64,000 nucleotides of DNA from Lysobacter sp. (GTDB lineage: Bacteria > Pseudomonadota > Gammaproteobacteria > Xanthomonadales > Xanthomonadaceae), in contig JABFRN010000001.1 in the NCBI GenBank assembly GCA_013141175.1, forward strand, positions 3,802,001 to 3,866,000, written 5' to 3'. The position numbers and the translations under genes were made by a program. Positions within the stretch are counted from its first letter, which is position 1, and each line of letters starts with the position of its first letter. The notes under the pieces were generated by a model. It had not been told where the DNA came from. It did no database searches and worked only from the letters and a program-made list of their open reading frames with translations. Below are positions 19,495 to 50,797 of the stretch, piece after piece.

Positions 19495-19497
19495 GGC

Positions 19498-34234: not shown

Positions 34235-37200
34235 TCAATAGATCTCGTCGAGCATGTCTCGGAACTCGAAACTTGCGGATCGTTGTGACGCCTCGTTGGT
34301 CGTAAAGGTTCCCGTCGATTCGTAGATGGACCCCAGCAGGCCTTCGAATTCCTCATTGCGCATACGCTGGATATCGGCGTATGCGGGGCAGTCGAATCTC
34401 AGGCCCTTGATCCTGATCATCACGCGGCCATCGGGGTCGATGATGTCGACATCCATGGCGAGTCGTTCGTCCTTCCCGCCTGCCCCGCGCGCCATCCGCA
34501 CCCAGATGCTGCCCTTCCGGCCGGCTCCCGGGAAAAACTGCACGCGATCCAGTGAGACGATCGTCGCGGCAGAGGACGTCGTGAATGCATCCGTCATCAG
34601 GCTGAGGCACGACAGATGCGCGAGCGACAGCAGCGACGCGGAATCCAGTTCGTCGCGGACCGTCGAATCCGCATCGCCCGCACGCGCCGGCAGCTGGAAT
34701 TCAAGCAACTGCTGGCTGTCGCCGAGATGGCAGGCCTCGATACCCCGGGGCAAGCGCTCGCGGGTCCATCCGCTGCGCGCCAATGCGTCGTGGAAAGCGG
34801 TGCTGTCGCGGCCCTCATCGCGGAACTGCTTCTTCAACTGGAACAGGTCGATGCGGTTGGGCTCCTCGCCCGTGTCGTAGCTCGCTGTTCCCTCGCACAC
34901 CAGCAGCTCGGATGCCTGCGCATCCATCCCGGCGCCGGCGCTGAGAATCTCGAAATCAACGGCTTTGCCGGCCAATGGGTAGACATTGACCTTGATCCTG
35001 CCGCCCTCCGACAGAGGGACGTCCTGCTCCCAGTTCAATGACCGCAGTTCCATCCGCGTCGGGCCGGATTCGCGGGCCAGCGATTCCTGTATCGCCAAGC
35101 GCGCCATCTCGACCGACAGCAGCTCCGGCAAACCCGCCGGCGAAGGCACGAAGGCGTCGCGCATCGGTTTTTCGAGACCGCTGAGATCGGAAACGAAGGA
35201 CTGCTGGCCGAATACCGAGACGTTGCGATGCAGCAGCGCATGCACCGTCGCCTGCGTGCCCGCTGCAGCGTTCTGCTTCTGCGCGCTGGTGTTGAACCAG
35301 TAGCGCTCGCGCGCGAAGGCGTATGTCGGCAGCGAGCAGCGCCGCACGTCCTGCCCGGCATGCATGGATTTCCAGTCGGGCTCCTGGCCTTTCAGCCAGA
35401 CGTCGAGCAGCGACGACAGATCGCGGTCGCGCAGCCACTGCTTCATCGTTCCGGCGTCGGTGGTGCCGATATCGGCCTTGCGGCGGACGCTGGCCAGCTT
35501 CACGTTCGCGCCTGCGGCATCGCCGCCGACGTAAGCGCGCAGGCGATCGATCAGTTCGTCCTTGCTGTCGACGATCAGGCCCATGCGCTCGGGCATCACA
35601 TCGCGCCCGATCTGCAGCGTGTAGGCGACGTCCGCGAGGTTGATCCGCTCTTCCTTGTCGAGATGGGCGAGCAGGCGTTCGGCGTTGGCGCGCAGGCGAT
35701 CCTCATGCTTGGCCGAGACCAGGATGAGATACGGGCCCTTCGGGCTCTGGCGCAGCGTAGCGTCCGTGTCCGGATACTCTTCGAGCACGATGTGCACATT
35801 CGCGCCGCCGAAGCCGAAGGAGCTGATGCCCGCCCGGCGGGGATACGGCGTGCCGTTGTCGTCGAGGATCACGTCCCACGGCTTGGTCTTTTCGACCGGA
35901 TAGAACGGCGTGTTGTCGAGATTGATGTACGGGTTCAATTTCTCGAAGTGCAGCAGCGCCGGAATCTGCTTGTGCTTGATCGACAGCAGCACCTTGAGAA
36001 TGCCGGCGATGCCCGCCGCGGTTTCGAGATGGCCGATATTGGTCTTCGCGGAGGTCAGGCCGATATGCGGCTTGGTCGGTACCGGCAACTGATGCTTGCG
36101 ATAGAGGTCCGAGAACGCCTTTTTCATCGCCTGGAACTCGATCGGATCGCCGAGGCTCGTGCCGGTGCCATGGCACTCCAGGAAACCGACGCTGCGCGGG
36201 TCGATCTCGGCCTTTTCGTAGGCTTCGACGAGCAGATCGGCCTGCGCATTCGGATTCGGAGCGGTCAGCATCGTCGCCTTGCCGCCGTGATTCTCGGCCG
36301 TCGACTTGATCAATGCGTAGATGTGATCGCCATCGGCCATCGCCTTGTCGAGCGGCTTGATGAAGATCGCGCCCGAACCTTCGCCGCGCACGTAGCCGTT
36401 CGCGCGGGAATCGAAGGTTTTGCATTTGCCGTCGCTCGCCAGCATGCCTGCCGCGCCGAACGAGATGTGCCCGGCCGCCGTGAGCATCACCTGCACGCCG
36501 CCGACGATGGCCATTTCGCAGCTGCCGGTGTGGATCGATTCGATCGCGCGGTGCAGCGCCACCAGCGAACTCGAGCACGCAGTGTCCAACGGCGCGCTGG
36601 GTCCGTGCAGGTCCAGCAGGAATGAAATGCGGTTGACCAGGATCGCGTGCGAGGTGCCCGATGCCGAATAACCGTCGAGATCGGCCTGCTTCATCGCCAT
36701 CAGGTCGATGTAGTCGCGCGTGGCGGCGCCGACGAACAGACCGGTTTTCGTGCCCGCGAGATCCGACACCTTGTGGCCGGAATCCTCGACGGCACCCCAG
36801 ACGGTTTCCAGGAAGATGCGCTGCTGCGGGTCCATCATTTCCGCTTCGCGCGGCGAAATGCCCCAGAACAGCGGGTCGAACTTGTCGACCTCGCGCATGA
36901 AACCGCCCCACTTCGACAGCGTCTTGTTCTTCTCCACCATCGGGTCGCCGTAACACTCTTCCCAATCCCAGCGGTCCGCCGGCACCAGGGTGACCATGTT
37001 GTTTTCGGCGTTCCTCAACTTTTCCCAGAACTCATCGACGTTGTCCGCCTGCGGCATCACGCCGCTCATGCCGACGATCGCGATGGGCCGTTCGATGAAG
37101 CGACGCCCCGGGGAGAAACTGCCTCCGCTCCTGGCGACCGGCGCACCCGCCGTCTCGGGAGCGTCGTCGGGGCTCCACTTCTTCTTGAAGGCAAGCGGCG

Positions 37201-40200
37201 CTTCGAGCGCGATCGGCGCAGCGCCGGACGCTGGCGCCGCGGACGGGCCGGCGGTGGCGGAAGCCGCCGACTGCCCATGCACGCGTTCGATCTCGTCGCG
37301 ATGCTCGCGAGCGAGGTACTTGGCGATTTCGCGGATGTTCGGATACTCGAAGAACAGCACCGGCGTGATGTCGAGGCCGTACTTTTCGTTCACCACGTTG
37401 CTGAAGGACGTCAGCCCGATCGAGTCGAAACCGAGATCCAGCAGGATGGTGTCCAGGTCGACATCGTCGGCATCCAGTTTCAGGAAATCCATGACGATGA
37501 GCGACAGCGCGTTCTGCGCCACCAGCGCCAGATCGTCGCCTTCCACCGCAGCGGTCGCGGCCACGGCCGTCGACGTGGACGTGGCCGCGGCCGGCGTCGC
37601 ATCGACAGGCTTTTCGACATCGACTGCGCCAATGCCCCATGCGCGCTCGACCTTCTCCTTGACGCCCTGCACCACGGCCAGATGCGGCAGGTCGCCGTGC
37701 AATCCAAGCATCAGCGCCTGGATTCCGACCTCGCGTTCGAGCGGCTTGATACCGAGATTGCGCTCGAAGAACAGCGCGGTCTGCTCGTCGAGACGCATGC
37801 CGCCTTCGGCCCAGATCGACCAGTTCACGCTGAGCGCCTTGCCTTGCCTCAGGCCGCGATCCGCATACGCGTTGCGATGGGCGGCGAACGCATCCATGAA
37901 GTGGTTCGCGAACGAATAATCGCTCTGCCCGGCATTGCCGGCGAGTGCCGCCAGCGACGAGAACATCGCGAAGAAATCCAGCGGTTCGTTTCGCGTCGCT
38001 TCGTCCAGCAACAGCGTGCCGAGGATCTTCGGCGCGAACACCGCCTGCATTTCATCCCGCGTCTTGTTGCGGATATAGGAATCGCGCAGCACGCCGGCGC
38101 TGTGGATGATGCCGTTCAGGGCGCCATAGCGCTGCTTGCAGGTCAGCACGAGGTTGTCGATATCTTCGCGCTTGGCGACATCGGCCTGCACGTAGAGCAC
38201 CTCGGCGCCCGCTTGCCGCAGCGCCTCCAGCGCCGCTTCGGTATCGCTCTTCAGCGCGCTGCGCCCGGTCAGGATCAGGCGCGCCTGGAACTGCTTCGCC
38301 AGATACTCGGCGAAGATCAGACCCAGGCCACCCGCGCCACCGGTGATGAGGTAGGCGCCGCGATGCTTGATCGGCACGTCGGCGACCGCGGCCGGCGGCG
38401 CGGGACAGGATTCGATCCTCCGCAGGTAACGCCGACCGTCGTGGTAACGGACGCCAAGCGCCTTGGTTTCGTGCATGAACTCGTTCGCGAGCGCCGCAAC
38501 GACACCGGCATCGAAAGCCGGTTCAGGCTGCAGGAACTCGATGATCTTGCACGACAGTTTCGGGCTCTCGGCACGCAATATCGTCGCGAAGCCCTGGATC
38601 GCGTCGTTGTGCGGCTGCGATTCGTCGGGAGTGCTGAAATACAGGTAATTGAGGCGCACATCGTTTTCGGCCTTCTGGCCGACGATCGCCTGGCACAAAT
38701 GTAGGAACGCATAGACGCCACGGTCCAGCGCTTGCACGGTCAGGTCGACGACAGGTTCGCCTCGATCGGCGATGACCGGCAGCGCGGACCATGCGAAACA
38801 CACCTGCAGCGGCGTCTGGCAGGTGCCCTGGAGCGAGGTCAGCAGCCGGACGAAATCCTCGCGTTCCCCGGCATTGACGCTGTAGCTACGATCGCCCAGT
38901 TGCTTGAAGCCATCGCCCGGGAAGACCGATACCAGCACCGTCTTGTCGTCGCCGCGCGCCGTCAATTGCGCGCTGTACGCGTCGCTGCTGGCCGCATCGG
39001 GTGCGAACAGTACGACGGTCTGCGGCGCGCTTCCCGCAGCGGTGGCGGTCAGCGTGGACACATGCCAATACGTACCGAAGTACAGCGTCGAGAATACGTC
39101 GGTGCTTTCGGCGGCCGGTGCTTTCGCGGGCCCGCTCTGTCCGGGCTTCTCGTGCACATCCAGCAGCGGTACGCCGACCGAATCGCGCACCTTGACCAGC
39201 ACCTTGCCGTGCTCGTCGACGATCAGCACATTCATCTTCGACAGATTCGAAGACGTCTTCTTCTCTTCCTTCGCCTCGGTGATGTAGCTGTAACAGACCG
39301 GCGTCAGCGGATGGAGGATTTCGACCTCGCCCAGCGAATACGGCACGAACATCTCGCCGCCGGCATCCGCCAGACGCGCGCCCATGGCGGCCTGGAACGA
39401 AGAGTCGACCAGCGAAGGATGCAGTACGAACTCTTCGAAACGCATGCCCGACAGCGTCGGGATCTTCAGCGCGCCGAGCACTTCGAAGCCGACGTTCGGA
39501 TTGCGATAGACCTCCTGCAGCGCCTGGAAGGTGGGTCCGAGATCCAATCCCAACGTCTTGAACGACGGGTACGCACGCTCGCCATCGAGCACTTTGTCGC
39601 AGCGCCCGCGTATCGCTTCGATATCGATGTATTCGTCTTCCGCCAGGCCGTCCTGTGCACTGGCGTAGTGCAGTTTGCCCTGGCAATACAGCTGCTTGCG
39701 GCTGCCTTCCCGTTCGCTGAACACTTCGAAGAACACGGCGTCGCCGGCCGGCTTCAATTCAATGAAGACTTCATTGGGGACGGCGTTCTGCACCGTCAGC
39801 GGGCTGACCCAGATGATGTTCTTGATCTTCTGTACTTTGCGCCCTGCCGCGATCTCGCCGGCCTTGCGCGCGAAATCGAGATAGGCGACGCCAGGAAGCG
39901 TCGGAATATCCGAGACCAGATGGTCGTAGATGAAGAATTCCTGGTCGGTGAACAGCTTGCGGAACAGCTGGCGCTCGAAGGTCGATTCGTTGCTGTCGAT
40001 GAGCGGATGCAGCGCATGGCCTGCCGTACGTCCCGCGAGCGCGGACGTGAGTTCACCCATGTCGGCGGATTCGAGCCAATGGCGCTTGTCGGCGAAGGGA
40101 TAGGTCGGCAGCGAAATGCGCCGCGCACCGGCGGTCGCCTGCATGCCGTGCCAATCCGAGACCAGGCCATCGATCCACAGCTGGGCCAGCTTCAGCGGGT

Positions 40201-43200
40201 CGCGGGACTGCGCGAGCAAGTCGATGAAGGCTTCCTTCTCCTTGCGGCTCAGCATCTTGGTGATGCCGTCGGCATTCCTCATGTGCCCGGAGACGATGTG
40301 GTCGTCGCGCGTATTGCCCAGGAAGTTCTGCAGCTTGTTGAGCAGTTGATCCATGCTGTCGGCGAGGATCGCGACCCTGTGATCGAACGATTTCCGGCCG
40401 ACCTGCAGGGTGAATGCGATGTCGTCGAAATGCGGCGCGGACTCGCTGTCGCGATGCTTCTCGATGAAGGACTTGAGTCGGACCGCCACCTGTCGCAGTT
40501 GCTCTTCGTTGCGCGCTGAAAGCGGGAATATGCGCAGGCCGCCCTGCACCGGTCTTGCCGCGACCGTGGCCGCCGCATCGTCGCGGGCTTCGAGGATGAC
40601 GTGCGCATTCGAGCCACCGGCACCGAACGAGCTGATCCCGGCGCGCAACGGTTGCCGGACGCCATCGACCTGTTTCGGCTGCCACGGTTCGACCGACTGC
40701 TGCACGACGAAAGGCGAATGCGCGAAATCGATGAACTCGTTGATCTGCTGCGAATGCAGCGAAGGCACCAGCTGCCTGTGCCGCATCTGCAGCAGCACCT
40801 TGCACACGCCCGCGATGCCGGCCGCGGCTTCCAGATGGCCGATATTGGTCTTGATCGAACCGATCGCACAGCTTTGCAGCGCGACGCTGTCCCGCTCGAA
40901 CGCCTGGTTCAGACCGGCGATTTCGATCGGATCGCCGAGCTCGGTGCCAGTGCCGTGCGCTTCGATATAACCGATGCTGCGGGCATCGATCCCGGCCTTG
41001 TTCAGCGCCGAAGTGACCACATCGCACTGCGCTTTCGAATTGGGCACCGCATAACCGCTGTTGCGACCGCCATGGCTGATCGCCGTGCTTTTGACCACCG
41101 CATAGATGTTGTCGTTGTCGCGCTGCGCGTGCGACAACGGCTTCAGCAGCAGCGCACCGACGCCCTCGCCCGGCACATAACCGCTGGCGCCACGGCCGAA
41201 TGCGCGGCAGAAACCGTCGTCCGACAGCAGGCCACCGGCGACGGTGATTTCCTGCTTGCATTGATGGACATCCAGATTCACGCCACCGACGATGGCCGCC
41301 GCGCATTCGCCGAGCTGGATCGAATCGCAGGCAAGATGGATCGCGGTCAGGCTGGCCGAACACGCCGTATCCACCGCGATACTCGGGCCGGTGAAGTTCA
41401 TGGAATACGAAACGCGGTTCGCGATGCTCCACATGAACGAGTTGGCGATCACCTTGTTGCCGGCGAGCCGCTCTTCCGCGCCCACCATCTGGTACATCGT
41501 CCAGACCGCACCGACGAACACACCGATGTGCCGTGCGCCCTGATCCTCGCTCTGGAACGCTTCCGGATAGTAGCCGGCATCCTCCAGCGCTTCCCACGTG
41601 ACTTCCAGGAACAGGCGTTCCTGCGGATCGATCGTTTCGGCTTCGCGCGGGGAAATATTGAAGAACAGCGAATCGAAGCGGTCGATCTCGTCGATGAAAC
41701 CGCCGCGATACCGCCCGAGCACATCGCGCTGCCGGCGGCGCTGATAGCGCGAATCCGGGATCTCGCTGATGCAGTCCCTGCCCTGCAGCAGGTTTTCCCA
41801 CAATTCTTCGGTGTTCCTGGCCTTCGGGAAGCGCGCGGCCATGCCGACGATCGCGATCTCCGTGCCTCTGTCCAGGTCCCGATTCGCGCCGCTGCGCGCG
41901 AGGCCACCGCCGCCGTTCGCAACGGTGTTCACGGCTGCCGCTTTCGCTTCGCGAGGCGGTTCGCGGTCGGCGCTCGCGCGCGTGGCCGCCGTCGGCTGCG
42001 CCGATGCGGACGGGAAGAGATAACGATCGAGCCTGAACTTCGCGCCGAGATCGCCGATGCGGTCGTTGGCGCTGTCGATGGGGCAAAGATCGGGGATATC
42101 GACCCTGTTCGCGAAGGCTTCGATGAGCGAACCGCGCAATGCCTCGACATCCTCGCTCCTGAGCCCGACCGGGATCGCGAGGCGCACCAGCTGATTGAGG
42201 CTGGAATTCTGCTGCATGCCCACGCTGTGCGCGCCGGCACGGATGCCCGTCGCGAGATACAGCCAGGCAACGAAGGATGCGACCGGCGAGGCGAGCCCCT
42301 GGAACTCCGGCAGCTGTTTGACATCGATCAGCAGGCAATGGCCTCGCGCTGGACGCACGACCGGCACATTCCCCTCGATGAGCGATTGCCGCAGCGACTG
42401 CACCGCATCTACACGGCGACGCACCTGGGTTTCGATGAATTTCCGGTTCTGCAGCGAAAGCGCGACGCATTTCTTGTCGATCACGTCCAGCGCCTTGCCC
42501 TCGCGCTGCTGCAACGCCTGCAGTCTTTCATGCAGCGCCGGATCGTTGGTCGCGATCATGCCGCCCTTGTTGACGCAGAAATCCTTGGCCAGGCTGGTCA
42601 CGACCGCATCGGCCTGGGACAGCAATTCCGTGGCGACCTGCCACAACGTGGCATCACGCCATTCCGGGTCGTTGTCGATGATCAGCAGCGCATTCTCGAG
42701 TACGCGGGTGCCATCGAGCACCAGCGGAATGCGATGCTGCTGCAGCAACGCCTTCACCTGCTTCAGGTGCGGCAGCGACACGGCACCGCCTCCGGCGGCA
42801 TTGTCGGTCAGTTCGATGCAGACATAGGCGATCTCCGCCGCGTGCCTGTCGACTTCCGCCTGCAGCGCGGACATGTCCAGATTGCCTTTGTACGGCTCGT
42901 CCGAGTGCAGATCGAAGACCGCAGCGGTCGGCATTTCCTGCGGCGCGAAGCCCTTGTCGATCTGATGGAAAATCGTGCTGGGGAACAGCAGGTTCTGCGG
43001 CACCCGTCCCTTCTTCTCCCATGCCTGGCAGAAGATGTCTTCCGCCGCGCGACCGGACTGGGTCAGCGTGAAATGCTCGAACGGGAAGACCTGGCGCAGG
43101 CTGGCATTGACATCGATGGGGCGCTGCAACTGCGCGAACAGACTCGACATCTGCTTGTCGATGGCCGGCATGCGCAGCTGCGCCCACGAGTCCGTCTTAA

Positions 43201-44812
43201 GGTCGAAAACGACATCGTCCGTGGCGAGATTCTGCGGATTGAACCCGGCCTCCAGCAATGCTTGGGAGCGTGCATTGCCTTCGATGAGTGCAGCCGTGGA
43301 CGCTCGGGCGGGCGTTGTCGTCGCAGCGTGCTGCGCAACAGCCGGTCCAGCCGATGCCGTTCCTGCGCTCGAATCATCCATCGGCGCATCATCGACCTGG
43401 GACGCCGACGGATCGGCGATCATCATGATGATGTCGATGACATTGTCCGCCTTGCCCGCATCCGCGGCGCGGCACAGGAAGATGTTCTTGTTCTCCGGAC
43501 GGAACTTGTTCTTGAACTGCAGATTGCCGGCATCGTTGAAAATGTTCTGCTGGCGCAATTCGTCGAGGATCTTCTCGACTTCGGGATCGGCGGTCGGCGA
43601 ATCGCCGAGCTTGACCCCATACGTACCGCCGAGGCTGAAGAGACCGCAGCCTTCGGCGATCAGCGTTTCGATGATGTTGACGATGGCGAATTCCAGGCCG
43701 CCGAGCGGCATGTCCGCCCCGTAGAATTCCAGATCCATCAGATAGCCGCTGCCACCGGCCGCCACCGGCGATATCAGAATCACGTTCTGCATCGCATCGT
43801 CGACATACGTCAGGAATATCCGGTGTTCGCGATCGAGCGTGCCGGCGAGGATCTCGGCTTTGACGATATGGATCAGCGGATTCACCATGGTGCGCGAGCC
43901 GCACCATTGATCGATGATCGCCGCGATGTTTTCCGCTTTCCGTGGGTCGCTGCCGCAGATGTATTCCTCGGTGCGGCAGGCGCCGGCCTTGGAGAATTTC
44001 GAGACCTGGTAGCGCAGCCGCCGCATCGCCTGTCCTTCAAGCGTGAAGGACGGCAGATCGACGACGCGCTGCATCACGCCGAAGGGCGTCGCCGTGAACG
44101 TCTTGTCGCCGATCGCAGGCAAGGGCTGTTCCGCGAACAGGTTGAATTGCAGGTCGTTCCGGGCGCAGTAACGGAAAAGCTGTCCGGCGAGCGGCAGGAA
44201 GTCGTCCTCCGGCCCGGTGTAACCGTAGGCGAGCAGGATGCCCTTGCCCTTGCCGCAGTTGAAAAAGCCGCGCTTCTCGTCGCCGAAAAACAGCAACGGC
44301 GCGATCATCAGGGTGCCGCGCGATACCGACGACTCGTTCTTGTACTGGTGGAAGATCTCCTCGCGGCGCTGGCGAAGCGCCGGGTATCTGTCCAGATGCC
44401 TGTGCGCGACCAGCGCCGGAGTCGCTTCGGGCGGCGCGATCGTCGGCACGGCCTGCGGCTGCGGAACCGCTGCGACCGCGGCCGGAATACCGGACGGCTC
44501 GGCTCTCGCGCCCTGCGACGCGGGCGCGCCCGCAGGATCGCCCCCGAACTTCTGCATCAACACATCCAGGTGCTTCTTGACGAAATACTGCGCGAGATCG
44601 CGGACATTGAAGTTCTCGAACAGCAGGGTTTTCGGCAATGTGCCGAAGTCCTGTTCGAGCCGCTTCAGTATCTTCAGCACATGAAACGAATTGACGCCCA
44701 TTTCGCCGAACGGTGTCTGCGCATCGAACATGACTTCCGTGTCCGCTGCTCCACTGATCAGCGACTTCAGGTAGTTCTCAGTCAGCTCTTGCAAAATTTC
44801 GTGGTCCATCAC
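34235..44812 (-). CDS. PKS-C: trans-AT PKS with DUF2156 and PLP-lyase domains
   Basis: A 3,525-residue PKS. Order: ACP (1-90, Ser42 in GVNSF); DUF2156/GNAT-like (~135-470); PLP beta-eliminating-lyase-like (~515-910, Lys743); KS (~984-1415, Cys1151/His1286/His1326); DH (~1605-1885, His1631, Asp1803); KR (~1890-2420, GGAGGLG, Tyr2299); ACP (Ser2464); KS (~2575-3010, Cys2747/His2881/His2928); degenerate DH-like region (~3188-3480). The first DH has Asp instead of Gly in HxxxGxxxxP (HLVSDIPTLPG). The last DH-like region lacks the histidine and the second motif. The N-terminal ACP follows a PKS (PKS-B) that ends in a KS, and the C-terminal KS-DH is followed by a PKS starting with ACP, so both ends are split modules. 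Confidence 0.95.
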   Translation of the reverse strand: MMDHEILQELTENYLKSLISGAADTEVMFDAQTPFGEMGVNSFHVLKILKRLEQDFGTLPKTLLFENFNVRDLAQYFVKKHLDVLMQKFGGDPAGAPASQGARAEPSGIPAAVAAVPQPQAVPTIAPPEATPALVAHRHLDRYPALRQRREEIFHQYKNESSVSRGTLMIAPLLFFGDEKRGFFNCGKGKGILLAYGYTGPEDDFLPLAGQLFRYCARNDLQFNLFAEQPLPAIGDKTFTATPFGVMQRVVDLPSFTLEGQAMRRLRYQVSKFSKAGACRTEEYICGSDPRKAENIAAIIDQWCGSRTMVNPLIHIVKAEILAGTLDREHRIFLTYVDDAMQNVILISPVAAGGSGYLMDLEFYGADMPLGGLEFAIVNIIETLIAEGCGLFSLGGTYGVKLGDSPTADPEVEKILDELRQQNIFNDAGNLQFKNKFRPENKNIFLCRAADAGKADNVIDIIMMIADPSASQVDDAPMDDSSAGTASAGPAVAQHAATTTPARASTAALIEGNARSQALLEAGFNPQNLATDDVVFDLKTDSWAQLRMPAIDKQMSSLFAQLQRPIDVNASLRQVFPFEHFTLTQSGRAAEDIFCQAWEKKGRVPQNLLFPSTIFHQIDKGFAPQEMPTAAVFDLHSDEPYKGNLDMSALQAEVDRHAAEIAYVCIELTDNAAGGGAVSLPHLKQVKALLQQHRIPLVLDGTRVLENALLIIDNDPEWRDATLWQVATELLSQADAVVTSLAKDFCVNKGGMIATNDPALHERLQALQQREGKALDVIDKKCVALSLQNRKFIETQVRRRVDAVQSLRQSLIEGNVPVVRPARGHCLLIDVKQLPEFQGLASPVASFVAWLYLATGIRAGAHSVGMQQNSSLNQLVRLAIPVGLRSEDVEALRGSLIEAFANRVDIPDLCPIDSANDRIGDLGAKFRLDRYLFPSASAQPTAATRASADREPPREAKAAAVNTVANGGGGLARSGANRDLDRGTEIAIVGMAARFPKARNTEELWENLLQGRDCISEIPDSRYQRRRQRDVLGRYRGGFIDEIDRFDSLFFNISPREAETIDPQERLFLEVTWEALEDAGYYPEAFQSEDQGARHIGVFVGAVWTMYQMVGAEERLAGNKVIANSFMWSIANRVSYSMNFTGPSIAVDTACSASLTAIHLACDSIQLGECAAAIVGGVNLDVHQCKQEITVAGGLLSDDGFCRAFGRGASGYVPGEGVGALLLKPLSHAQRDNDNIYAVVKSTAISHGGRNSGYAVPNSKAQCDVVTSALNKAGIDARSIGYIEAHGTGTELGDPIEIAGLNQAFERDSVALQSCAIGSIKTNIGHLEAAAGIAGVCKVLLQMRHRQLVPSLHSQQINEFIDFAHSPFVVQQSVEPWQPKQVDGVRQPLRAGISSFGAGGSNAHVILEARDDAAATVAARPVQGGLRIFPLSARNEEQLRQVAVRLKSFIEKHRDSESAPHFDDIAFTLQVGRKSFDHRVAILADSMDQLLNKLQNFLGNTRDDHIVSGHMRNADGITKMLSRKEKEAFIDLLAQSRDPLKLAQLWIDGLVSDWHGMQATAGARRISLPTYPFADKRHWLESADMGELTSALAGRTAGHALHPLIDSNESTFERQLFRKLFTDQEFFIYDHLVSDIPTLPGVAYLDFARKAGEIAAGRKVQKIKNIIWVSPLTVQNAVPNEVFIELKPAGDAVFFEVFSEREGSRKQLYCQGKLHYASAQDGLAEDEYIDIEAIRGRCDKVLDGERAYPSFKTLGLDLGPTFQALQEVYRNPNVGFEVLGALKIPTLSGMRFEEFVLHPSLVDSSFQAAMGARLADAGGEMFVPYSLGEVEILHPLTPVCYSYITEAKEEKKTSSNLSKMNVLIVDEHGKVLVKVRDSVGVPLLDVHEKPGQSGPAKAPAAESTDVFSTLYFGTYWHVSTLTATAAGSAPQTVVLFAPDAASSDAYSAQLTARGDDKTVLVSVFPGDGFKQLGDRSYSVNAGEREDFVRLLTSLQGTCQTPLQVCFAWSALPVIADRGEPVVDLTVQALDRGVYAFLHLCQAIVGQKAENDVRLNYLYFSTPDESQPHNDAIQGFATILRAESPKLSCKIIEFLQPEPAFDAGVVAALANEFMHETKALGVRYHDGRRYLRRIESCPAPPAAVADVPIKHRGAYLITGGAGGLGLIFAEYLAKQFQARLILTGRSALKSDTEAALEALRQAGAEVLYVQADVAKREDIDNLVLTCKQRYGALNGIIHSAGVLRDSYIRNKTRDEMQAVFAPKILGTLLLDEATRNEPLDFFAMFSSLAALAGNAGQSDYSFANHFMDAFAAHRNAYADRGLRQGKALSVNWSIWAEGGMRLDEQTALFFERNLGIKPLEREVGIQALMLGLHGDLPHLAVVQGVKEKVERAWGIGAVDVEKPVDATPAAATSTSTAVAATAAVEGDDLALVAQNALSLIVMDFLKLDADDVDLDTILLDLGFDSIGLTSFSNVVNEKYGLDITPVLFFEYPNIREIAKYLAREHRDEIERVHGQSAASATAGPSAAPASGAAPIALEAPLAFKKKWSPDDAPETAGAPVARSGGSFSPGRRFIERPIAIVGMSGVMPQADNVDEFWEKLRNAENNMVTLVPADRWDWEECYGDPMVEKNKTLSKWGGFMREVDKFDPLFWGISPREAEMMDPQQRIFLETVWGAVEDSGHKVSDLAGTKTGLFVGAATRDYIDLMAMKQADLDGYSASGTSHAILVNRISFLLDLHGPSAPLDTACSSSLVALHRAIESIHTGSCEMAIVGGVQVMLTAAGHISFGAAGMLASDGKCKTFDSRANGYVRGEGSGAIFIKPLDKAMADGDHIYALIKSTAENHGGKATMLTAPNPNAQADLLVEAYEKAEIDPRSVGFLECHGTGTSLGDPIEFQAMKKAFSDLYRKHQLPVPTKPHIGLTSAKTNIGHLETAAGIAGILKVLLSIKHKQIPALLHFEKLNPYINLDNTPFYPVEKTKPWDVILDDNGTPYPRRAGISSFGFGGANVHIVLEEYPDTDATLRQSPKGPYLILVSAKHEDRLRANAERLLAHLDKEERINLADVAYTLQIGRDVMPERMGLIVDSKDELIDRLRAYVGGDAAGANVKLASVRRKADIGTTDAGTMKQWLRDRDLSSLLDVWLKGQEPDWKSMHAGQDVRRCSLPTYAFARERYWFNTSAQKQNAAAGTQATVHALLHRNVSVFGQQSFVSDLSGLEKPMRDAFVPSPAGLPELLSVEMARLAIQESLARESGPTRMELRSLNWEQDVPLSEGGRIKVNVYPLAGKAVDFEILSAGAGMDAQASELLVCEGTASYDTGEEPNRIDLFQLKKQFRDEGRDSTAFHDALARSGWTRERLPRGIEACHLGDSQQLLEFQLPARAGDADSTVRDELDSASLLSLAHLSCLSLMTDAFTTSSAATIVSLDRVQFFPGAGRKGSIWVRMARGAGGKDERLAMDVDIIDPDGRVMIRIKGLRFDCPAYADIQRMRNEEFEGLLGSIYESTGTFTTNEASQRSASFEFRDMLDEIY
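42080..44812 (-). other. ACP - DUF2156/GNAT-like - PLP-lyase domain block of PKS-C
   Basis: Residues 1-910 of PKS-C. The DUF2156 part shows the lysyl-phosphatidylglycerol-synthase-like pattern: FFGDEKRGFF, ILLAYGYTGPEDD, then LEFYGADMPLGGLEF and EGCGLFSLGG. The PLP part follows the tryptophanase/tyrosine phenol-lyase plan: LTQSGRAAEDIF, LFPSTIFHQIDKG, ELTDNAAGGGAVS, LDGTRVLENAL and the probable PLP lysine in SLAKDFCVNKGG (Lys743). The order ACP-DUF-PLP lyase matches the layout known for the sulfur-inserting module of leinamycin PKS LnmJ. Confidence 0.8.
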
Positions 44813-44947: not shown

Positions 44948-45373
44948 TCATGAGTATTCCCGTATATCGGTTTCGATCTTGACGATGGTGCCCTGGGCGA
45001 CAGCGACCAGCATCGACTCCTGGCCGCGCACGACGTACACCTTGCATTCGCATACCGCCTGCCGCAGCGCGAACGACAGCACCGTGGATTTCGCGACGAG
45101 CAGATCGCCGATGCTCGGCATCACGTAGTTGATCTTGAATTCCGAGGTGACGCAGTGGCCGAGCACGGTCGCGCCGGCGAAGGTCAGGCAATTGTCGGCG
45201 AGGTAACTCACGACGCCGCCATGCACATAGCCATAGCTCTGTTTGAAATCCTCGCGGATCCGCAGCGCCAGCTCGGCATAACCCTGGGACAGGTCGCACA
45301 ATTCGGTACCCAGCAACCGACTGAACGGCTGCGATACCAGCACTTGCTGTCCTTTTTCGAAAAAATCGCTCAC
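44948..45373 (-). CDS. PaaI-type hotdog thioesterase
   Basis: A 141-residue single-hotdog acyl-thioesterase of the PaaI/YbgC-like superfamily. The active-site helix YVHGGVVSYLADN holds the conserved His-Gly-Gly and an acidic residue, followed by FKINYVMP and KSTVLSFALRQAVCECKVYV strands. It sits between PKS-C (135-base gap) and the acyl-hydrolase-like AT, on the same strand. Such enzymes in polyketide clusters clear stalled acyl chains from carriers or hydrolyse CoA esters. The 135 bases after its stop contain only very short frames I do not consider genes. Confidence 0.88.
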   Translation of the reverse strand: MSDFFEKGQQVLVSQPFSRLLGTELCDLSQGYAELALRIREDFKQSYGYVHGGVVSYLADNCLTFAGATVLGHCVTSEFKINYVMPSIGDLLVAKSTVLSFALRQAVCECKVYVVRGQESMLVAVAQGTIVKIETDIREYS

Positions 45374-45391: not shown

Positions 45392-46378
45392 TTATGCGCT
45401 GCGCACATCGGTCAAGCCTCCGCAGCGCAGGGCATTGCCGAAAGTCCGGTTGTCCCTGCCGAATGGGTTGACCACGTCGCTGAACACGGAAGCCGTCTGC
45501 GCAGGCAGCAGATATTTCACGAACGTAGCCAGCGTGCCGCTGGGGCCAACATCGAGAAAACAGCAATCCCCCTGGCGCAACAGCGACTGCACGGTCGTAT
45601 CGAAAGCGATCGGGTGACGGGACAGCGACCAGAAATGCCGAGGCCAAAGGCCGGTGTCGAATCGCGAATCCCTCGTCGAGCCGTCGAAACTGGAGATGCA
45701 CGGCACCTGGAGCGGCTGGAAATCGATGCCCTGGGCCAGTTCGAGCATCCTGCCTTCGATCGGTTGCACCATTTCGGTATGGAATCCGAAATTGACCGCC
45801 AGCAACTGATGGACGACATTGTCGTCCAGCATGGCCTCGCGCAAGGACTGGATCGCGGGCACCGACCCCGTGACGACGACATGGCGGTCGAAATTGCGCG
45901 CGGTAAGCCAGCAGCCATCGAACAGGTGGGCATAGCGGGTTTCGACGGACGGCACGTCGAGAACCGCGAGCATTCTCGCCGGCGGGCATTCCGCCTCGAT
46001 CAGTTTCGCGTAATCGACGATGAACCGTATGCCCTGCTCCAGGGTCAACGCGCCGCCGACCACCGCCGCGCTGAACTCGCCAAGGCTGTAACCGAGCAGA
46101 TAGTCGGGCTTGACGCCCGCCTCGATCAGTACGCGCGCAAGGCTGAATTCGAAGCACAACAGCGCAGGATTGGTATACAGCAGGCGATCGAAGGGCTTGC
46201 TCTTGTCGCCGTCGCCGTACAGGACGTCGCACAGCGAGCGTCCGATCATCGGCTGTGCGATTTCGTCGCAGTGATCCATCCACATCCGGAATCGCGGGTG
46301 GCTGTGATACAGCTCCCGGCCCATTTGATAGTACTGGGAGCTTTGTCCGGAGAACATGAATACGACAGGGAGGCGCAT
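45392..46378 (-). CDS. Free-standing AT-like acyl hydrolase (proofreading type)
   Basis: A 328-residue member of the malonyl-CoA:ACP transacylase superfamily. The nucleophile is Ser98 in GYSLGE, and the N-terminus FMFSGQSSQYYQMGREL is characteristic of the acyl-hydrolase clade of trans-AT clusters (PedC-like). The position that reads GAFHS in malonyl ATs is NFGFHTE here, also pointing away from malonyl transfer. ATG 46378 is chosen because homologues start just before the FMFSGQ motif; the longer frame to 46450 overlaps the upstream AT gene. It follows that gene by seven bases. Probable role: hydrolysing stalled acyl units from carrier proteins. Confidence 0.88.
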   Translation of the reverse strand: MRLPVVFMFSGQSSQYYQMGRELYHSHPRFRMWMDHCDEIAQPMIGRSLCDVLYGDGDKSKPFDRLLYTNPALLCFEFSLARVLIEAGVKPDYLLGYSLGEFSAAVVGGALTLEQGIRFIVDYAKLIEAECPPARMLAVLDVPSVETRYAHLFDGCWLTARNFDRHVVVTGSVPAIQSLREAMLDDNVVHQLLAVNFGFHTEMVQPIEGRMLELAQGIDFQPLQVPCISSFDGSTRDSRFDTGLWPRHFWSLSRHPIAFDTTVQSLLRQGDCCFLDVGPSGTLATFVKYLLPAQTASVFSDVVNPFGRDNRTFGNALRCGGLTDVRSA

Positions 46379-46385
46379 GACGATC

Positions 46386-47573
46386 CTATGCCGCCGCGAT
46401 TTCGTCGAGATCGAAATAGCCGTTGTAGCCTTCCATATAGACGGCGGCACGATGACCGAAGAGCTCGACGGCGGACGTGCGGGTGGTCAGTTCGCCGTAA
46501 TCCATCACCAGCGATTTGACCTTGGTACCGACCGGATGGCGTTTGTTCCACGCCGATACCTTCTGCTCCGCCAGAGCGAAACGATTATCGGACGGCGCGG
46601 CAGCGCCGGCTTCCGTACGCGCATCCGTCCCGGGCGCCGCGACCGCGACCGCAGGCGCGATGCTGGCGACCGCCGGCGGCGTCTCCGTCTTCTGGACGGC
46701 GGGCGCGGCCTTCTCGGCGGCTTTCGCGAGTTGACGCTTGATGTTCGCGATCATTTTCGTCAGGACATCGCCATGCCCCAGTTCCAGGAATTCCATCTGG
46801 TCGGAGATCTTGAGCAGGGATTGAATCGTGTCGCTCCACAGCACCGTGCTGCTGATCTGTTTCGACAGATAGTCGACGACGGCGCCTTTCGGGTACGGCT
46901 TCGCCGTCAGGTTGGCCATGACCGGAATCTTCGGGTCGGCGAACTTGCGCTTCTTGAGGAAACTCTCGAACTTGCTCTGCGCGGGTTTCATCAGCCTTGA
47001 ATGGAACGCGCCACTGGTGTTCAGCGGCACGAACATGACGTTGTCGAACTGGAAAATGTTCTGGCTCGCCGCGATCTCATCGGCCGGTCCGGAAATGACG
47101 ATCTGCAGCGGCGCATTGTAGTTGGCGATATCGACGTTCTTGAATCCGTTTTCCTTCAGCAATGTTTCAACCTGTCCGCGAGTCGCGTTCAGGATCGCCG
47201 CCATCGCGCCGTCGGTCGCCTGGCTCATCAGCTCGCCGCGCTTCTTGACGAGTTTCAACCCGGTTTCGAAATCGAAACATTCGGCGGCGAGCAGCGCATT
47301 GAACTCGCCCAGGCTGTGGCCTGCGACGTAGTCCGGCGTCTCGCCCGCCTGCTGGATCTGCTTGTAGTACGAAAGCGCATTGACGACATACAGCGCCGGT
47401 TGCGTGAACTGGGTATTCTTGAGTTCCTTGTTGGGATCGCTCAGGCACAGTTCCTTGATCGAATAGCCGAGGATCTTGTCGGCCTTGTCGGTCAGCTCCG
47501 GAAACTCATCGAACAGGCTGCCGCCCATGCCGCGCGCCTGCGAGCCTTGCCCGGGGAACATATAGGTTTTCAT
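46386..47573 (-). CDS. Trans-acting malonyl-CoA acyltransferase with C-terminal extension
   Basis: A 395-residue protein whose first ~285 residues form a malonyl-CoA:ACP transacylase: FPGQGSQARGMG at the N-terminus, nucleophile Ser87 in GHSLGE, and GAFHSRLM, the malonyl-specific motif. It would load extender units onto the AT-less modules of PKS-A to PKS-D. A Pro/Ala-rich linker leads to a ~60-residue C-terminal domain (WNKRHPVGTKVKSL through FGHRAAVYMEGYNGYFDL), which I have not assigned to a named family. ATG 47573 has GGAG six bases upstream; ATG 47588 overlaps that signal. Confidence 0.93.
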   Translation of the reverse strand: MKTYMFPGQGSQARGMGGSLFDEFPELTDKADKILGYSIKELCLSDPNKELKNTQFTQPALYVVNALSYYKQIQQAGETPDYVAGHSLGEFNALLAAECFDFETGLKLVKKRGELMSQATDGAMAAILNATRGQVETLLKENGFKNVDIANYNAPLQIVISGPADEIAASQNIFQFDNVMFVPLNTSGAFHSRLMKPAQSKFESFLKKRKFADPKIPVMANLTAKPYPKGAVVDYLSKQISSTVLWSDTIQSLLKISDQMEFLELGHGDVLTKMIANIKRQLAKAAEKAAPAVQKTETPPAVASIAPAVAVAAPGTDARTEAGAAAPSDNRFALAEQKVSAWNKRHPVGTKVKSLVMDYGELTTRTSAVELFGHRAAVYMEGYNGYFDLDEIAAA

Positions 47574-47677
47574 CGAATTCTCCAGCATTGTTGGTGTTTA
47601 CGAGCCTGGCGGCTTCGTCAACGACAGAATGGATGCGCGGGCGTCCCGATGCCCATGGTCATGTCCTCGGCCCGGCT

Positions 47678-47917
47678 TCACAGTTCCGCATGCAGCAGAC
47701 CGGCCAGCTCGCCGATGTTTTCGGCCTTGACGACCTTGATCAGCGGAATCTTCAGCGACAGCGACTCGAGCGTGAGCATGACGATCTCGGAACGATCGAT
47801 GGAATTCGCGCCGAGTTCGCGCAGCGAGTCCGAGAATTGAAACTGACGATCGTCCAGACCCGGAAGCACATCACGGGTATGCCCAACGATGATGTCGAAA
47901 ATCTTTTCCATCTCCAC
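47678..47917 (-). CDS. Free-standing acyl carrier protein of the beta-branching cassette
   Basis: A 79-residue ACP with phosphopantetheine serine Ser39 in ELGANSIDRSEIV, a motif typical of the donor ACPs in HMG-CoA-synthase cassettes (AcpK-like). It would carry acetyl made from malonyl for addition to the beta-keto group of the growing chain. GTG 47917 is preferred because AGGAG lies eight bases upstream; ATG 47911 is two codons later. It is encoded directly after the two ECH genes and the HCS gene of the cassette. Confidence 0.9.
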   Translation of the reverse strand: MEMEKIFDIIVGHTRDVLPGLDDRQFQFSDSLRELGANSIDRSEIVMLTLESLSLKIPLIKVVKAENIGELAGLLHAEL

Positions 47918-48009
47918 AGCAACTTCTCCTGGGTGGCGTGCGTCAAGCGTCTCGTCGCATGATTGCCGACGCAGACGGACCCGCACGCGAAATGCGATTC
48001 AAAAACCAC

Positions 48010-48759
48010 TCATGCGCCGAACAGCGTCGCTATCCTGGATTTCACTTCCGGCTGCGAGAACGTGATGGCATGCATGGCGACTTCCTGCGCGACCATCGCC
48101 GGCAAGGCCTCACGCAATGGCACGGTCAGGTGTTCCTTGAGCGTCACCAGCGACAAGCGTGGTTTTTCGGCCAACGTCCGCGCAAGCTCGAGTGCGTGCG
48201 CCATCACCTTGTCTCGCGGCAATACGGGAAACGGGATGCCGCGGAGCTGCAACTCATCTCCCCGATAGTTGTTCGCCGACAGCATCATCTCGGTCGCGAT
48301 ACCAATCCCCAACTTCTGCGGCAGGATGAATGTCGCGCCCATACCGGGCGTAAACCCATAACGCATGAAGTTTGCAGCGTAAATGCTTTCCCGGCTCAGT
48401 ACAACCATATCGGCGAACATTCCCAGCACGAAACCGCCGCCGATTCCATGTCCCTGCATCGCGGAGATGACGGGCACCGGACAATGCAGCGGAAGGCTGT
48501 ACAGCGCCCGATCCGTGAATGCCCCGCGACCGTCGGAAAGCCCCATCAGCAGCTCCTGGGTGCCGCCGCTGGCGAAATAATTGTCGTACCCGGTCAGGAT
48601 GACGACCTTGCAGTCCGGATTCCCGCCGGCCGCAGCGAAGGCATCCATCAGGCCCTGGGTCAGGCCCTCCGAGAACGTATTCTTGTTGACCCGGTCCTGC
48701 ATTTTGATCTGCAGGATGTGCGGTTCGAGCCAATCCAGTGAGACAGCGCTGTCAGACAT
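48010..48759 (-). CDS. Enoyl-CoA hydratase-like decarboxylase (ECH2, PksI-like)
   Basis: A 249-residue crotonase-fold enzyme matching ECH2/PksI. It decarboxylates the dehydrated HMG-type intermediate on the ACP to leave a methyl-type beta-branch. Markers are YFASGGTQELLMGL, the oxyanion-hole region SAMQGHGIGGGFVLGMFADMV (quoted in part) and NFMRYGFTPGMGAT. The ATG at 48759 overlaps the stop of ECH1 by one base (TAATG). It probably acts on the tandem carriers of PKS-A. Confidence 0.93.
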   Translation of the reverse strand: MSDSAVSLDWLEPHILQIKMQDRVNKNTFSEGLTQGLMDAFAAAGGNPDCKVVILTGYDNYFASGGTQELLMGLSDGRGAFTDRALYSLPLHCPVPVISAMQGHGIGGGFVLGMFADMVVLSRESIYAANFMRYGFTPGMGATFILPQKLGIGIATEMMLSANNYRGDELQLRGIPFPVLPRDKVMAHALELARTLAEKPRLSLVTLKEHLTVPLREALPAMVAQEVAMHAITFSQPEVKSRIATLFGA

Positions 48760-49538
48760 TACGAGGTGCCCTCCCAGGGGAATTCTCCGGTCTTCACGTA
48801 ACGCGAGATGCGCTGCAGATTCTCGATATCGGAAAACACCTCCCGGTTCGCGGCGAGCGCTGCGTGCTCGCAGGTATCGAGTGACCCTTCGATCGAGTGC
48901 ATATAACGCTTGTAGCGCGCGATGCTGGTCTTGTTCAGTCGACGAAGACGGAGCAGATTCCTGCGCAGCAGGTTTTCGCTGTTCTCCTCGTAGGCGTCCA
49001 CGAGGCCCCATTCGTGCGCGTTCTGCACCGTGACCGGCTGTGTCATCAGCGTCATGTAGTTGGCTTTGGCGAATCCGATGCGCCGGATCAGGAAAGGCAG
49101 TACGCACGCGGGCATCAGGCCGAACAGCAGTTCGGACAGGCTGAACACCGCCTTGGTATCGGCGAGGACGATATCGCAGGCGGCCACGAAACCGATGCCG
49201 CCCGCGTTGGCCTTGCCGCGTACGTGCGCGATCGACACGTACGGCCCGCTGGCCAGCCGCCGCCACAATGCGTACATCGGCTGCGGATCCTGCTGCGGCG
49301 GTGCGTCGCCGTCGAAGCTGCGCTGCAGCTCCGCGAAGTCGGCGCCGAAGCAGAATACTTCCGGCAAGCCTTCCACAACCACGATCTTGGCACGCACCTC
49401 GCACAGATCGAGCGCCGCCGTGAATTCCTTGATCAACTGTTCGTTGATCGCGTTGTTCGCGTCCGGCCGGTGGATCTGGAGATGCGCGATCTCGTCGTCG
49501 AAACGGACGCGCAGGGTCGTGAAAGCGGACGGGTCCAT
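48759..49538 (-). CDS. Enoyl-CoA hydratase-like dehydratase (ECH1, PksH-like)
   Basis: A 259-residue crotonase-fold enzyme matching ECH1/PksH, which dehydrates the HMG-type intermediate formed by the HCS enzyme. Visible: LQIHRPDANNAINEQL, EVFCFGADFAEL (first oxyanion-hole strand) and VRGKANAGGIGFVAACDIVLA (in part, second oxyanion element). ATG 49538 overlaps the stop of the HCS gene by one base (TGATG). Gene order HCS-ECH1-ECH2-ACP is the classic cassette arrangement. Confidence 0.92.
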   Translation of the reverse strand: MDPSAFTTLRVRFDDEIAHLQIHRPDANNAINEQLIKEFTAALDLCEVRAKIVVVEGLPEVFCFGADFAELQRSFDGDAPPQQDPQPMYALWRRLASGPYVSIAHVRGKANAGGIGFVAACDIVLADTKAVFSLSELLFGLMPACVLPFLIRRIGFAKANYMTLMTQPVTVQNAHEWGLVDAYEENSENLLRRNLLRLRRLNKTSIARYKRYMHSIEGSLDTCEHAALAANREVFSDIENLQRISRYVKTGEFPWEGTS

Positions 49539-50797
49539 CAACCGACCCACTCGTATTCGCGGTGGAATTCCTTGATTTCCTTCAGGAACAACACCGGCTT
49601 GCCGATCGCGCTGCGCGCACGCGAGACGAAACTGCTGTCCAGTTCGACGTTGCGCGTACCGAAACGGACGGCATTGCTGCCGACCAGCAGCCGGTCGTAT
49701 TCGTCCATCGTCAATTCGGTGCGGCGGTCGAGATGCTCCTTGATCTGCATCTTGCGCAGGCGCTGCTGCCCTTCCTTGCGCACCACTCCGCTGAAGAACT
49801 CGGAGCAGCAGCCGGAACCGTAGGAAAACGCGCCGATGCGACGCGGGGTTTCGAAATCGCCGTGCTCGATCGTGCTCGCGATCGCCAGCGGCATGGTCGC
49901 GCCCATGATGTTGGCGACGCGCTGGCAGTAGATCATGCCCGGGGTGACGCGACGCTGGAAATCCTCCTCGATGTCGTTGGGCTTGGCGCGCATGATCTTG
50001 CGCATCATGTTGCGGTGCGCGCCCTTGACCATGCCGCCGAAGGGACAGTGGTAAGCCAGGTAGGTGAACGTCTCGGCGAAGTTGGCGTCGGGCACGCGCT
50101 TCTTGTATTCGATGAACGCGTTCTCGCAGCAATCCAGGTACGACAGCAGCGACAGGTCGGAATCGCCGGCGTCGCCGTCCGCCGTCGGCCGGCAGGTATC
50201 CATCACTTCGTAGCCGTAGTAGCCGTTCGCGCCCACGTCGATCTGCAGCAGGTGCGGTTGATCGCTGATCAGCATCGCGACCGCGCCCGATCCGCTGCTG
50301 GGTTCGGCGAACGACCAGTCGGCGGTCAGCGCGTCGCCGCCGTCCTCGACCATGAAGCGCGAAATGTCGGTCGCGATCACCAGCGCTTTCGCGCCCGGCG
50401 ACGCCTGCGACAGCACGAAGTTGACCGCCATCTGGATGCCGGCGGCGCCGGAATAGCAGGCGTTCTTCAGCTCGAACAGGCGGCAGTTGCGGTTCAGCCC
50501 CAGCAGGCTGTGGCAATAGGTGCTCATCGATTTGCCGAAATCGAAGCCCGATTCGGTGCAGGTGATCACCATCTCGATCCTGTCCCTCTCTTCCGGGCTC
50601 AGCGCATCGACGATGGGTCTTGCCGCATTGACGGCGAACGTGATCGGGTCTTCGTACGGCAATGCGACCGTCTTTTCCTTCATCAACAGGTTCTCGAAAC
50701 GCGTGGTGTCGAGGTTGCGATGCTCCGCGAGGCTACTGACGTTCAGAAAGGCCGTTCCAGCGAACGCGTTCATGGCCTCGATACCAACTGTTTTCAT
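49538..50797 (-). CDS. HMG-CoA synthase-like beta-branching enzyme (HCS, PksG-like)
   Basis: A 419-residue HCS enzyme that condenses an acetyl-ACP with the beta-keto group of an ACP-bound polyketide. The nucleophilic cysteine is Cys114 in LKNACYSGAAG, and the general-acid/base region YLAYHCPFGGMVKGAHR is intact, as is GSGCCSEFFSG near the C-terminus. ATG 50797 is chosen because GGAGAG lies six bases upstream; the eight extra codons to 50821 have no such signal. The KS-like decarboxylase that usually completes the cassette is not found in this window. Confidence 0.94.
   Translation of the reverse strand: MKTVGIEAMNAFAGTAFLNVSSLAEHRNLDTTRFENLLMKEKTVALPYEDPITFAVNAARPIVDALSPEERDRIEMVITCTESGFDFGKSMSTYCHSLLGLNRNCRLFELKNACYSGAAGIQMAVNFVLSQASPGAKALVIATDISRFMVEDGGDALTADWSFAEPSSGSGAVAMLISDQPHLLQIDVGANGYYGYEVMDTCRPTADGDAGDSDLSLLSYLDCCENAFIEYKKRVPDANFAETFTYLAYHCPFGGMVKGAHRNMMRKIMRAKPNDIEEDFQRRVTPGMIYCQRVANIMGATMPLAIASTIEHGDFETPRRIGAFSYGSGCCSEFFSGVVRKEGQQRLRKMQIKEHLDRRTELTMDEYDRLLVGSNAVRFGTRNVELDSSFVSRARSAIGKPVLFLKEIKEFHREYEWVG

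Follow-up and report, generated by a model that had tools for sequence, protein, structure and literature searches.

A predicted leinamycin-type ACP-DUF-SH sulfur-insertion block in mid-line of a Lysobacter trans-acyltransferase polyketide synthase

Among the polyketide synthases (PKSs) of the leinamycin family, LnmJ, GnmT and WsmR carry a DUF2156-type domain (DUF) followed by a pyridoxal phosphate (PLP)-dependent domain termed SH; the SH domains of all three cleave thiocysteine adducts to hydropersulfides, and addition of the thiocysteine by the DUF is a proposal in print for this family (PMC8479088). The same source counts 109 DUF-SH biosynthetic gene clusters, with three families outside the leinamycin family. 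Leinamycin-type modules carry two acyl carrier proteins (ACPs), of which only the first is beta-branched; PMC7618002 (2024) leaves undecided which of the tandem ACPs receives the sulfur and speculates that the second serves off-loading, since DUF-SH modules outside the leinamycin type carry a single ACP and lack a thioesterase (TE). The order ACP-DUF2156-PLP-ketosynthase (KS) had been tabulated beside LnmJ for Lysobacter sp. ATCC 53042 and Kordia algicida in 2013 (Table 2 of PMC3870968). We analysed PKS-C, a protein encoded in a 64,000-nucleotide stretch of a Lysobacter sp. genome (contig JABFRN010000001.1, positions 3,802,001 to 3,866,000; the whole stretch is called the window). With a probability of roughly 0.78, its N-terminal block is a sulfur-insertion cassette of the leinamycin kind, ACP-DUF-SH, located mid-line in a gammaproteobacterial trans-acyltransferase PKS, with the sulfur step on a carrier of the second leinamycin ACP type (WsmR ACP8). 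The original prediction for this DNA had treated the arrangement as novel, a claim forestalled by the 2013 table and by the 2024 account of one-ACP, TE-less modules; our additions are the ACP8-type grouping of the carrier and a doubt that this ACP is beta-branched.

PKS-C is a single stop-free frame of 3525 amino acids (aa) at 34235-44812 on the minus strand, on which all window features given below also lie. Residues 1-911 comprise an ACP, a PF09924 domain and a PLP domain, after which a KS begins, and the Pfam order of the whole protein is two PP-binding stretches, PF09924, PF01212, KS, dehydratase (DH), ketoreductase (KR), ACP, KS and a second DH-like stretch. The scores of the two defining domains are far above chance: PF09924 (LPG_synthase_C) matches residues 177-447 at E = 1.4e-16 (60.9 bits, cut-off 27.5), and PF01212 (Beta_elim_lyase) matches residues 568-792 at E = 2.9e-28 (99.5 bits, cut-off 27). 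The N-terminal ACP (44567-44812) was recognised by the motif MGVNSF with Ser42, the DUF maps to 43391-44410, and the predicted SH domain (42080-43279) holds the PLP lysine, residue 743, together with Pro611 and His862; the KS after it lies at 40523-41812 and is followed by a DH (39143-40027) and a KR (37778-38377). Pfam, motif and residue positions thereby agree with the prediction of a carrier protein, a DUF2156-like domain and a PLP domain with Lys743 before a KS within the first ~910 residues, and its block coordinates match the mapped domains. Its remarks that the block does not adjoin a thioesterase and that elongation goes on also hold, in that KS, DH, KR, ACP and KS follow the SH and the TE is in another protein. 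PKS-C (ACP-DUF-SH-KS-DH-KR...) does not reproduce the terminal module KS-ACP-ACP-DUF-SH-TE, and with one ACP and no TE its DUF-SH module fits the description of the non-leinamycin type (PMC7618002). The host, Lysobacter sp., is gammaproteobacterial, as had been supposed from the sequence, and shares its genus with G115, one of the relatives compared below.

The PLP domain is assigned to the leinamycin-type SH domains (thiocysteine lyase type) because its match to a PKS structure beats those to tyrosine phenol-lyase (TPL) and tryptophanase, and because a tree separates SH domains from TPL and tryptophanase (TnaA)-like proteins. Its best solved-structure match was 9cen (E = 2.6e-62), an entry described simply as a polyketide synthase protein, with the best TPL trailing at 1.2e-40 and the best tryptophanase at 2e-34; the leinamycin-type SH of L031 matched 9cen at 6.8e-77, the sole sequence below 1e-40. 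The tree held 33 rows (20 non-leinamycin SH domains, four leinamycin-type SH domains, from L031-L034, the SH of G286, and eight TPL/TnaA-like proteins; L015, in which a frame break splits the SH match, was left unmended and omitted), and the 25 SH rows, the window's among them, separated from the other eight with support of 100/100. The original prediction had allowed for an independent origin or a new domain type; placement of the window SH in one clade with the leinamycin-type SH domains, apart from TPL/TnaA, points instead to a shared origin, and the tree rules out a new domain type as well as membership of the tryptophanase clade.

The residues of the domain are consistent with this placement. 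In the numbering of the 456-aa Phytobacter TPL, K257, D214, R217, R404, N185 and F123 are retained in 25/25 SH rows, and the window SH has the PLP lysine and TPL-type PLP- and carboxylate-binding residues K743, D700, R703, R877 and N671, so that the retention of the PLP lysine claimed from the sequence is borne out. P124 and H381 occur in all 25 SH rows and in none of the eight TPL/TnaA-like rows, whereas K256 shows the reverse distribution (8/8 versus 0/25). TPL and tryptophanase thus resemble the window SH in the PF01212 family, the PLP lysine and the carboxylate-binding residues, but form a separate branch in which Tyr71, Lys256 and Arg381 of TPL correspond to Phe, Ala and His of the window SH; replacement of the Tyr71 equivalent and absence of Arg381 in such PLP domains had been noted earlier (PMC3870968). 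An ordinary tryptophanase or TPL, an aminotransferase or a dead remnant caught in a PKS could be suspected from the remote homology, five TPL/TnaA-like loci being 29-33% identical to the window SH. We regard such an origin as next to negligible in probability and, as a classification, already refuted: the best solved-structure match is a PKS protein, the SH clade is separate, and the PLP-binding residues are retained in the alignment. An inactive remnant is likewise made unlikely by those residues and by conservation of the block across Pseudomonadota and Acidobacteriota.

Directly before the SH stands a DUF of the leinamycin kind. Its family, the tandem-GNAT family PF09924, is the former DUF2156, in accord with the label used in PMC3870968. 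PF09924 matched the leinamycin-type DUFs of L031-L033, the loci scanned for this domain, at 1.9e-18, 2e-17 and 2.8e-16 and the window DUF at 5.6e-18, and in an alignment of 24 DUFs (excluding L051 and the partial L018) the window DUF was 39-43% identical to four leinamycin-type rows. By these comparisons the window DUF belongs to the same family as the leinamycin-type DUFs, and the DUF-SH kinship with LnmJ that had been proposed is upheld by the family, the DUF identity and the single SH clade.

A profile built from the DUF alignment also matched solved synthase domains of the MprF type (5vrv at 4.2e-11 and a further nine to 1.8e-4; the matches include 6lv0, 7f47, 4v34 and 4v36), a likeness that extends to the MprF/LpiA/A-PGS group. 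MprF synthase domains adopt a tandem-GNAT fold and depend on aminoacyl-tRNA (PMC8131360). The window DUF differs from them in sitting inside a PKS, without a membrane flippase part, and in an incomplete DLMR-type motif. The Asp and the Arg of DLMR matter for MprF; across the 24 DUFs the Asp is retained in 24/24 and the Arg is replaced by Phe in 24/24, and because of this replacement we classify the window DUF as a relative and not as a lysyl-phosphatidylglycerol synthase.

Where the chemistry takes place was approached through the carrier. A 51-row ACP tree joined the 18 ACPs preceding non-leinamycin DUFs, three second leinamycin-type ACPs and two ACPs of G286 into one set (97/86), while the first leinamycin ACPs fell with ACPs bearing the beta-branching Trp flag. 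The same set of DUF-adjacent and second leinamycin ACPs was recovered at 93/85 in a tree reduced to 39 rows by dropping L017, five long-branch ACPs from the window's line, one of the G286 ACPs and five ACPs from other genomes; joining the DUF-adjacent ACPs to the first leinamycin ACPs was rejected on the 39-row set (p-AU 0.007), and joining them to the other plain ACPs of the line was rejected less firmly (p 0.029). Both trees exclude L008 and L015, and L018, which begins within the DUF, contributes no ACP. The window ACP lacks the Trp flag, and its module has no beta-branching (clade 1) ACP, the single ACP grouping with the second leinamycin ACP. None of the DUF-SH modules of the 18 DUF-adjacent ACPs is followed by a TE, and in 16/18 of them a Met (a GTG start in the window) lies just before the ACP in translation, so probably no further ACP precedes it within the protein. 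There is thus moderate support for an ACP of the WsmR ACP8 type, rather than the beta-branching type, next to the window DUF; from this grouping it follows that sulfur insertion probably occurs on an ACP8-type carrier, and ACP, DUF and SH seem, mainly from the trees, to have been inherited as a three-domain block. Since the SH in window-type modules precedes a KS and not a TE, the comparison favours the second leinamycin ACP as the carrier for DUF and SH.

Several points weigh against this interpretation. The ACP trees draw on 81 columns with flagged long branches, the fork of the 39-row tree is not starred, and the groups compared in the AU test were named only after the first ACP tree had been seen. 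Of the five clade-2 markers of PMC7618002 the window ACP has only two, the Lys and the Phe, and lacks T/S32, M36 and P59; as that Lys and Phe recur in own96918 and own76556, ordinary ACPs from this line, the markers are weak as proof of the second-ACP type. Numbered by the motif pattern of L031-L033 rather than by the Wsm sequences, all 12 non-leinamycin ACP rows compared carry Lys at the R/K38 position and Phe at the F56 position, and 0/12 have R39, D/E41, Y60 or D63 of the branching ACP; 5/12 have the branching-ACP D35, and 0/12 have the second-ACP M36 or P59. The residues being only partly helpful, the carrier claim rests on the trees. Also unfavourable, to the sulfur-cassette reading as a whole, are the Phe at the Tyr71 position of TPL, a position that is variable among SH domains, the absence from the window cassette of a KS0-like gene that close relatives carry, and the standing of DUF-catalysed addition as a proposal in print, for the leinamycin family too; moreover, no product or enzyme activity for this clade was found in the available text of the literature searched.

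The block adjoins a beta-branching cassette, comprising an HMG-CoA-synthase-like enzyme (HMGS; 49541-50797), two enoyl-CoA hydratases (ECHs) named ECH1 (48762-49541) and ECH2 (48013-48768) by position, and a donor-type ACP (LRELGANSIDRSEIV; 47681-47914), which together span 47681-50797, followed by acyltransferases at 46389-47588 and 45395-46378 and a hot-dog thioesterase (4HBT; 44951-45373). The same order (KS end of the upstream PKS, HMGS, two ECHs, donor-type ACP, acyltransferases, thioesterase, ACP-DUF-SH) is found in the window, G062, G115 (= L009), L007 and L008. In those four relatives a KS0-like gene, in L007 a KS family protein with GGASASG in place of the active Cys, stands between donor ACP and acyltransferase, and the window interval 47588-47681 lacks it. 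The sole close copy in the window genome (66% identity; G000:C1:2054297-2055550, L056, L069), at 2.054 Mb and 1.8 Mb away, adjoins a second donor ACP and acyltransferase and could serve the window cassette in trans. In G061 the donor ACP in the first cluster has no KS0-like gene next to it, and a weak KS match of that kind occurs near a second DUF-SH copy.

An HMGS match was obtained in 18/20 DUF-SH genomes tested, the misses being two Marinicella metagenome-assembled genomes, and in 8/149 genomes of the window's family, namely 7/7 with DUF-SH versus 1/142 others. As proof of beta-branching on the PKS-C ACP, this co-occurrence is undercut by Trp-flag ACPs in other modules of 7/7 clusters analysed over a long span (the window, G061, G089, G516, G519, G521 and G515; 40 to 108 kb each), which could account for it without the DUF-SH module. 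These ACPs are mostly tandem and lie beside embedded ECH-like domains; in the window they are the PKS-A pair (Ser-motif positions 61846 and 62197) and further ones upstream. At ~70-84 kb from the window start (extended coordinates, L035-L036), PKS modules hold Trp-flag tandem ACPs and ECH-like domains; with the PKS-A pair, the upstream pairs suggest three beta-branching modules in the line. Thus the link to beta-branching made in the original prediction stands as to the cassette beside the block, while its action on this module is doubtful, given the missing Trp flag and the other Trp-flag ACPs available to HMGS.

Our preferred reading of the block, by homology and gene order, would run as follows. 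The C-terminal KS of PKS-B (51258-52520), thought to feed the block, would extend the chain onto Ser42 of PKS-C; the DUF would attach L-thiocysteine at an electrophilic carbon in the chain on that ACP, by analogy with the proposal for the leinamycin family; the SH, with PLP on Lys743, would cleave the cysteinyl C-S bond by beta-elimination and leave a hydropersulfide. PLP beta-eliminations of this kind release pyruvate and ammonia. The next KS would accept the sulfur-bearing chain, and the PKS-D TE would release it. Of the mid-chain thiol, persulfide or amino-acid-derived group that had been envisaged, the hydropersulfide is what three SH domains of leinamycin type have been shown to produce (PMC8479088).

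Two kinds of acceptor for the thiocysteine come into consideration. On a leinamycin-like acceptor, the HMGS cassette would beta-branch the beta-keto group on the PKS-C ACP and thiocysteine would add to a glutaconyl-type double bond. In the window and the four relatives of like order the cassette genes do separate the feeding KS from ACP-DUF-SH, HMGS co-occurs with DUF-SH in the counts above, and Pfam shows no KR or DH of its own in the ACP-DUF-SH module; against this, the PKS-C ACP has no Trp flag and none of the equivalents of R39, D/E41, Y60 and D63, single mutants of which abolished or reduced branching in WsmR ACP7, WsmR ACP8 is not branched (PMC7618002), and each of the seven clusters analysed over a long span offers HMGS other Trp-flag ACPs. 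We therefore hold a branched acceptor to be possible but at odds appreciably below even. Alternatively, thiocysteine may add to a double bond that the DH-KR module one step earlier supplies (a vinylogous enone once the PKS-B KS has extended the chain), uncoupled from beta-branching. PKS-B has the order DH-KR-ACP-KS, and its DH and KS motifs are intact; because the Cys, HGTGT and NIGH motifs of its C-terminal KS are intact, that KS is taken as elongating, and a non-elongating KS, which would give a simple enoyl acceptor, is rejected. The unflagged ACP agrees with an unbranched acceptor, as does a KS-DH directly before the HMGS genes in G061, G089 and G519, whose early block ends there without PKS-B (the preceding module therefore differs within the clade), and in L019, where KS-DH, HMGS and ACP-DUF-SH are consecutive. 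Yet the module order across genes is deduced, the KS-DH // ACP-DUF-SH type showed no KR, and leinamycin chemistry was proposed on a branched acceptor, so we give the unbranched acceptor somewhat less than even odds.

It is unlikely that the SH acts here as a plain cysteine lyase and leaves a thiol in place of a hydropersulfide. LnmJ-SH has weak cysteine lyase activity too (PMC8479088), and no methyltransferase family, and so nothing like the persulfide-capping GnmP, was found among the 22 window open reading frames (ORFs) scanned with Pfam; but each of the three SH domains characterised acts as a thiocysteine lyase (PMC8479088), and SH domains form one clade. A bolder version, by analogy with MprF, would have the DUF draw cysteine, or cysteine persulfide, off charged tRNA(Cys) and transfer it to an unbranched chain borne by the ACP8-type carrier; it would amount to tRNA-dependent sulfur insertion into a polyketide and is highly improbable. 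Its milder form, in which an unbranched acceptor on the ACP8-type carrier meets free thiocysteine as donor, is much likelier, though still somewhat under even chances.

The ACP-DUF-SH block recurs well beyond the window. A contig scan of genomes gave 15 DUF-SH loci: Lysobacter, Lysobacteraceae bacterium 2PB, Pseudomarimonas, Steroidobacter, Luteibacter, Aliikangiella, Kangiellaceae, Marinicella (two, one with a partial DUF), Massilia, Caballeronia and four Acidobacteriota. Within the window's family, 13 of 149 genomes matched, seven (window included) with DUF and SH and six with a TPL/TnaA-like protein only. The DUF alone matched six of 369 genomes of the class, clearly in the window and G286 and weakly (23-34% identity) in four. 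In Acidobacteriota, the phylum of G517, 164 of 297 genomes matched; among the Acidobacteriota matches listed (best first), the seed G517 is the only one to span the whole block, the others lying in the PLP part. We mapped 21 further non-leinamycin copies, 20 of them distinct (G115 = L009); L022-L027 repeat L009, G062, L008, G061a, G089 and G013, respectively, and were not counted as separate loci. The SH is followed by a KS in 21/21 copies, then by a DH in 20 (not L011) and a KR in 19 (not L011; L017 ends within the DH). This KS is 59-86% identical to the window's across relatives, compared with 33-55% for other KSs and 26-29% for KS0-like genes with the same query, which marks it as a conserved partner of the block.

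Two relatives depart from this pattern. G061 has two DUF-SH copies, and in the second (G061:C32:18825-21757) DUF and SH lie in separate frames (555 aa and 4114 aa), either a split gene or an assembly error. The gammaproteobacterium G286 (L072 and L073, G286:C32:72000-108000) has a leinamycin-type terminal arrangement, with the SH at ~91.2-92.4 kb in the order KS, three ACPs, DUF, SH, a hydrolase-like stretch (TE-like by eye), donor ACP and HMGS; one of its ACPs groups with branching ACPs and two with the ACP8 type, and its SH groups, on a long branch, with actinobacterial leinamycin-type SH domains.

Downstream of PKS-C, PKS-D (28676-32449) consists of ACP, KS, ACP and TE. Its KS, between the two ACPs, reads DGYAT for HGTGT and, because the His is lost, is probably non-elongating. 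A 536-aa protein of the PKS operon (32624-34234) is barrel-like with a signal-like start by eye, has no Pfam or NCBIfam match, and recurs in G061, G089, G062, G115 and L011; in the window, G061 and G089 it has an MMPL pump (26129-28672 in the window) close by. The two are possibly an export pair and may export the product. Beside the cluster, four ORFs (309, 142, 269 and 253 aa; 18565-20732 and 22962-23723) have a base pattern like that of coding DNA but match nothing in Pfam or NCBIfam.

The nearest described proteins by domain order alone (PMC3870968) are F8TUA6 of Lysobacter sp. ATCC 53042 (CP-DUF2156-PLP3-KS-KR-CP-KS-KR), whose genus belongs to the family of the window's nearest named relatives, and A9ECY5 of Kordia algicida, which share the ACP-to-KS order; no tested function of either was found in the available part of that paper. 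Nor was a prior statement of the ACP8-carrier argument found in the DUF-SH literature searched, which covered main texts, largely in part, and no supplements. In this clade an HMGS cassette should not be presumed to act at the sulfur acceptor step, and one-ACP modules such as that of PKS-C make the question of first versus second ACP in the leinamycin sulfur step testable; the carrier comparison points to the second leinamycin ACP as a possible site of DUF/SH chemistry, as against the off-loading role speculated in PMC7618002. The window resembles the LnmJ, GnmT and WsmR systems (PMC8479088, PMC7618002) in its PF09924 DUF, its SH clade, an HMGS in the cluster and, probably, an ACP8-type carrier before the DUF. 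It differs from them in that no nonribosomal peptide synthetase family was found among the 22 window ORFs scanned, a scan that excludes the upstream genes. The three leinamycin-type loci L031-L033 have annotated LnmK and HMGS beside DUF-SH, with LnmK where the window's close relatives have the KS0-like gene (no search was aimed at LnmK). Finally, in LnmJ, GnmT and WsmR the DUF-SH unit forms the last module, with tandem ACPs and an SH followed by a TE, whereas in the window it stands mid-line, with one ACP and an SH followed by a KS.

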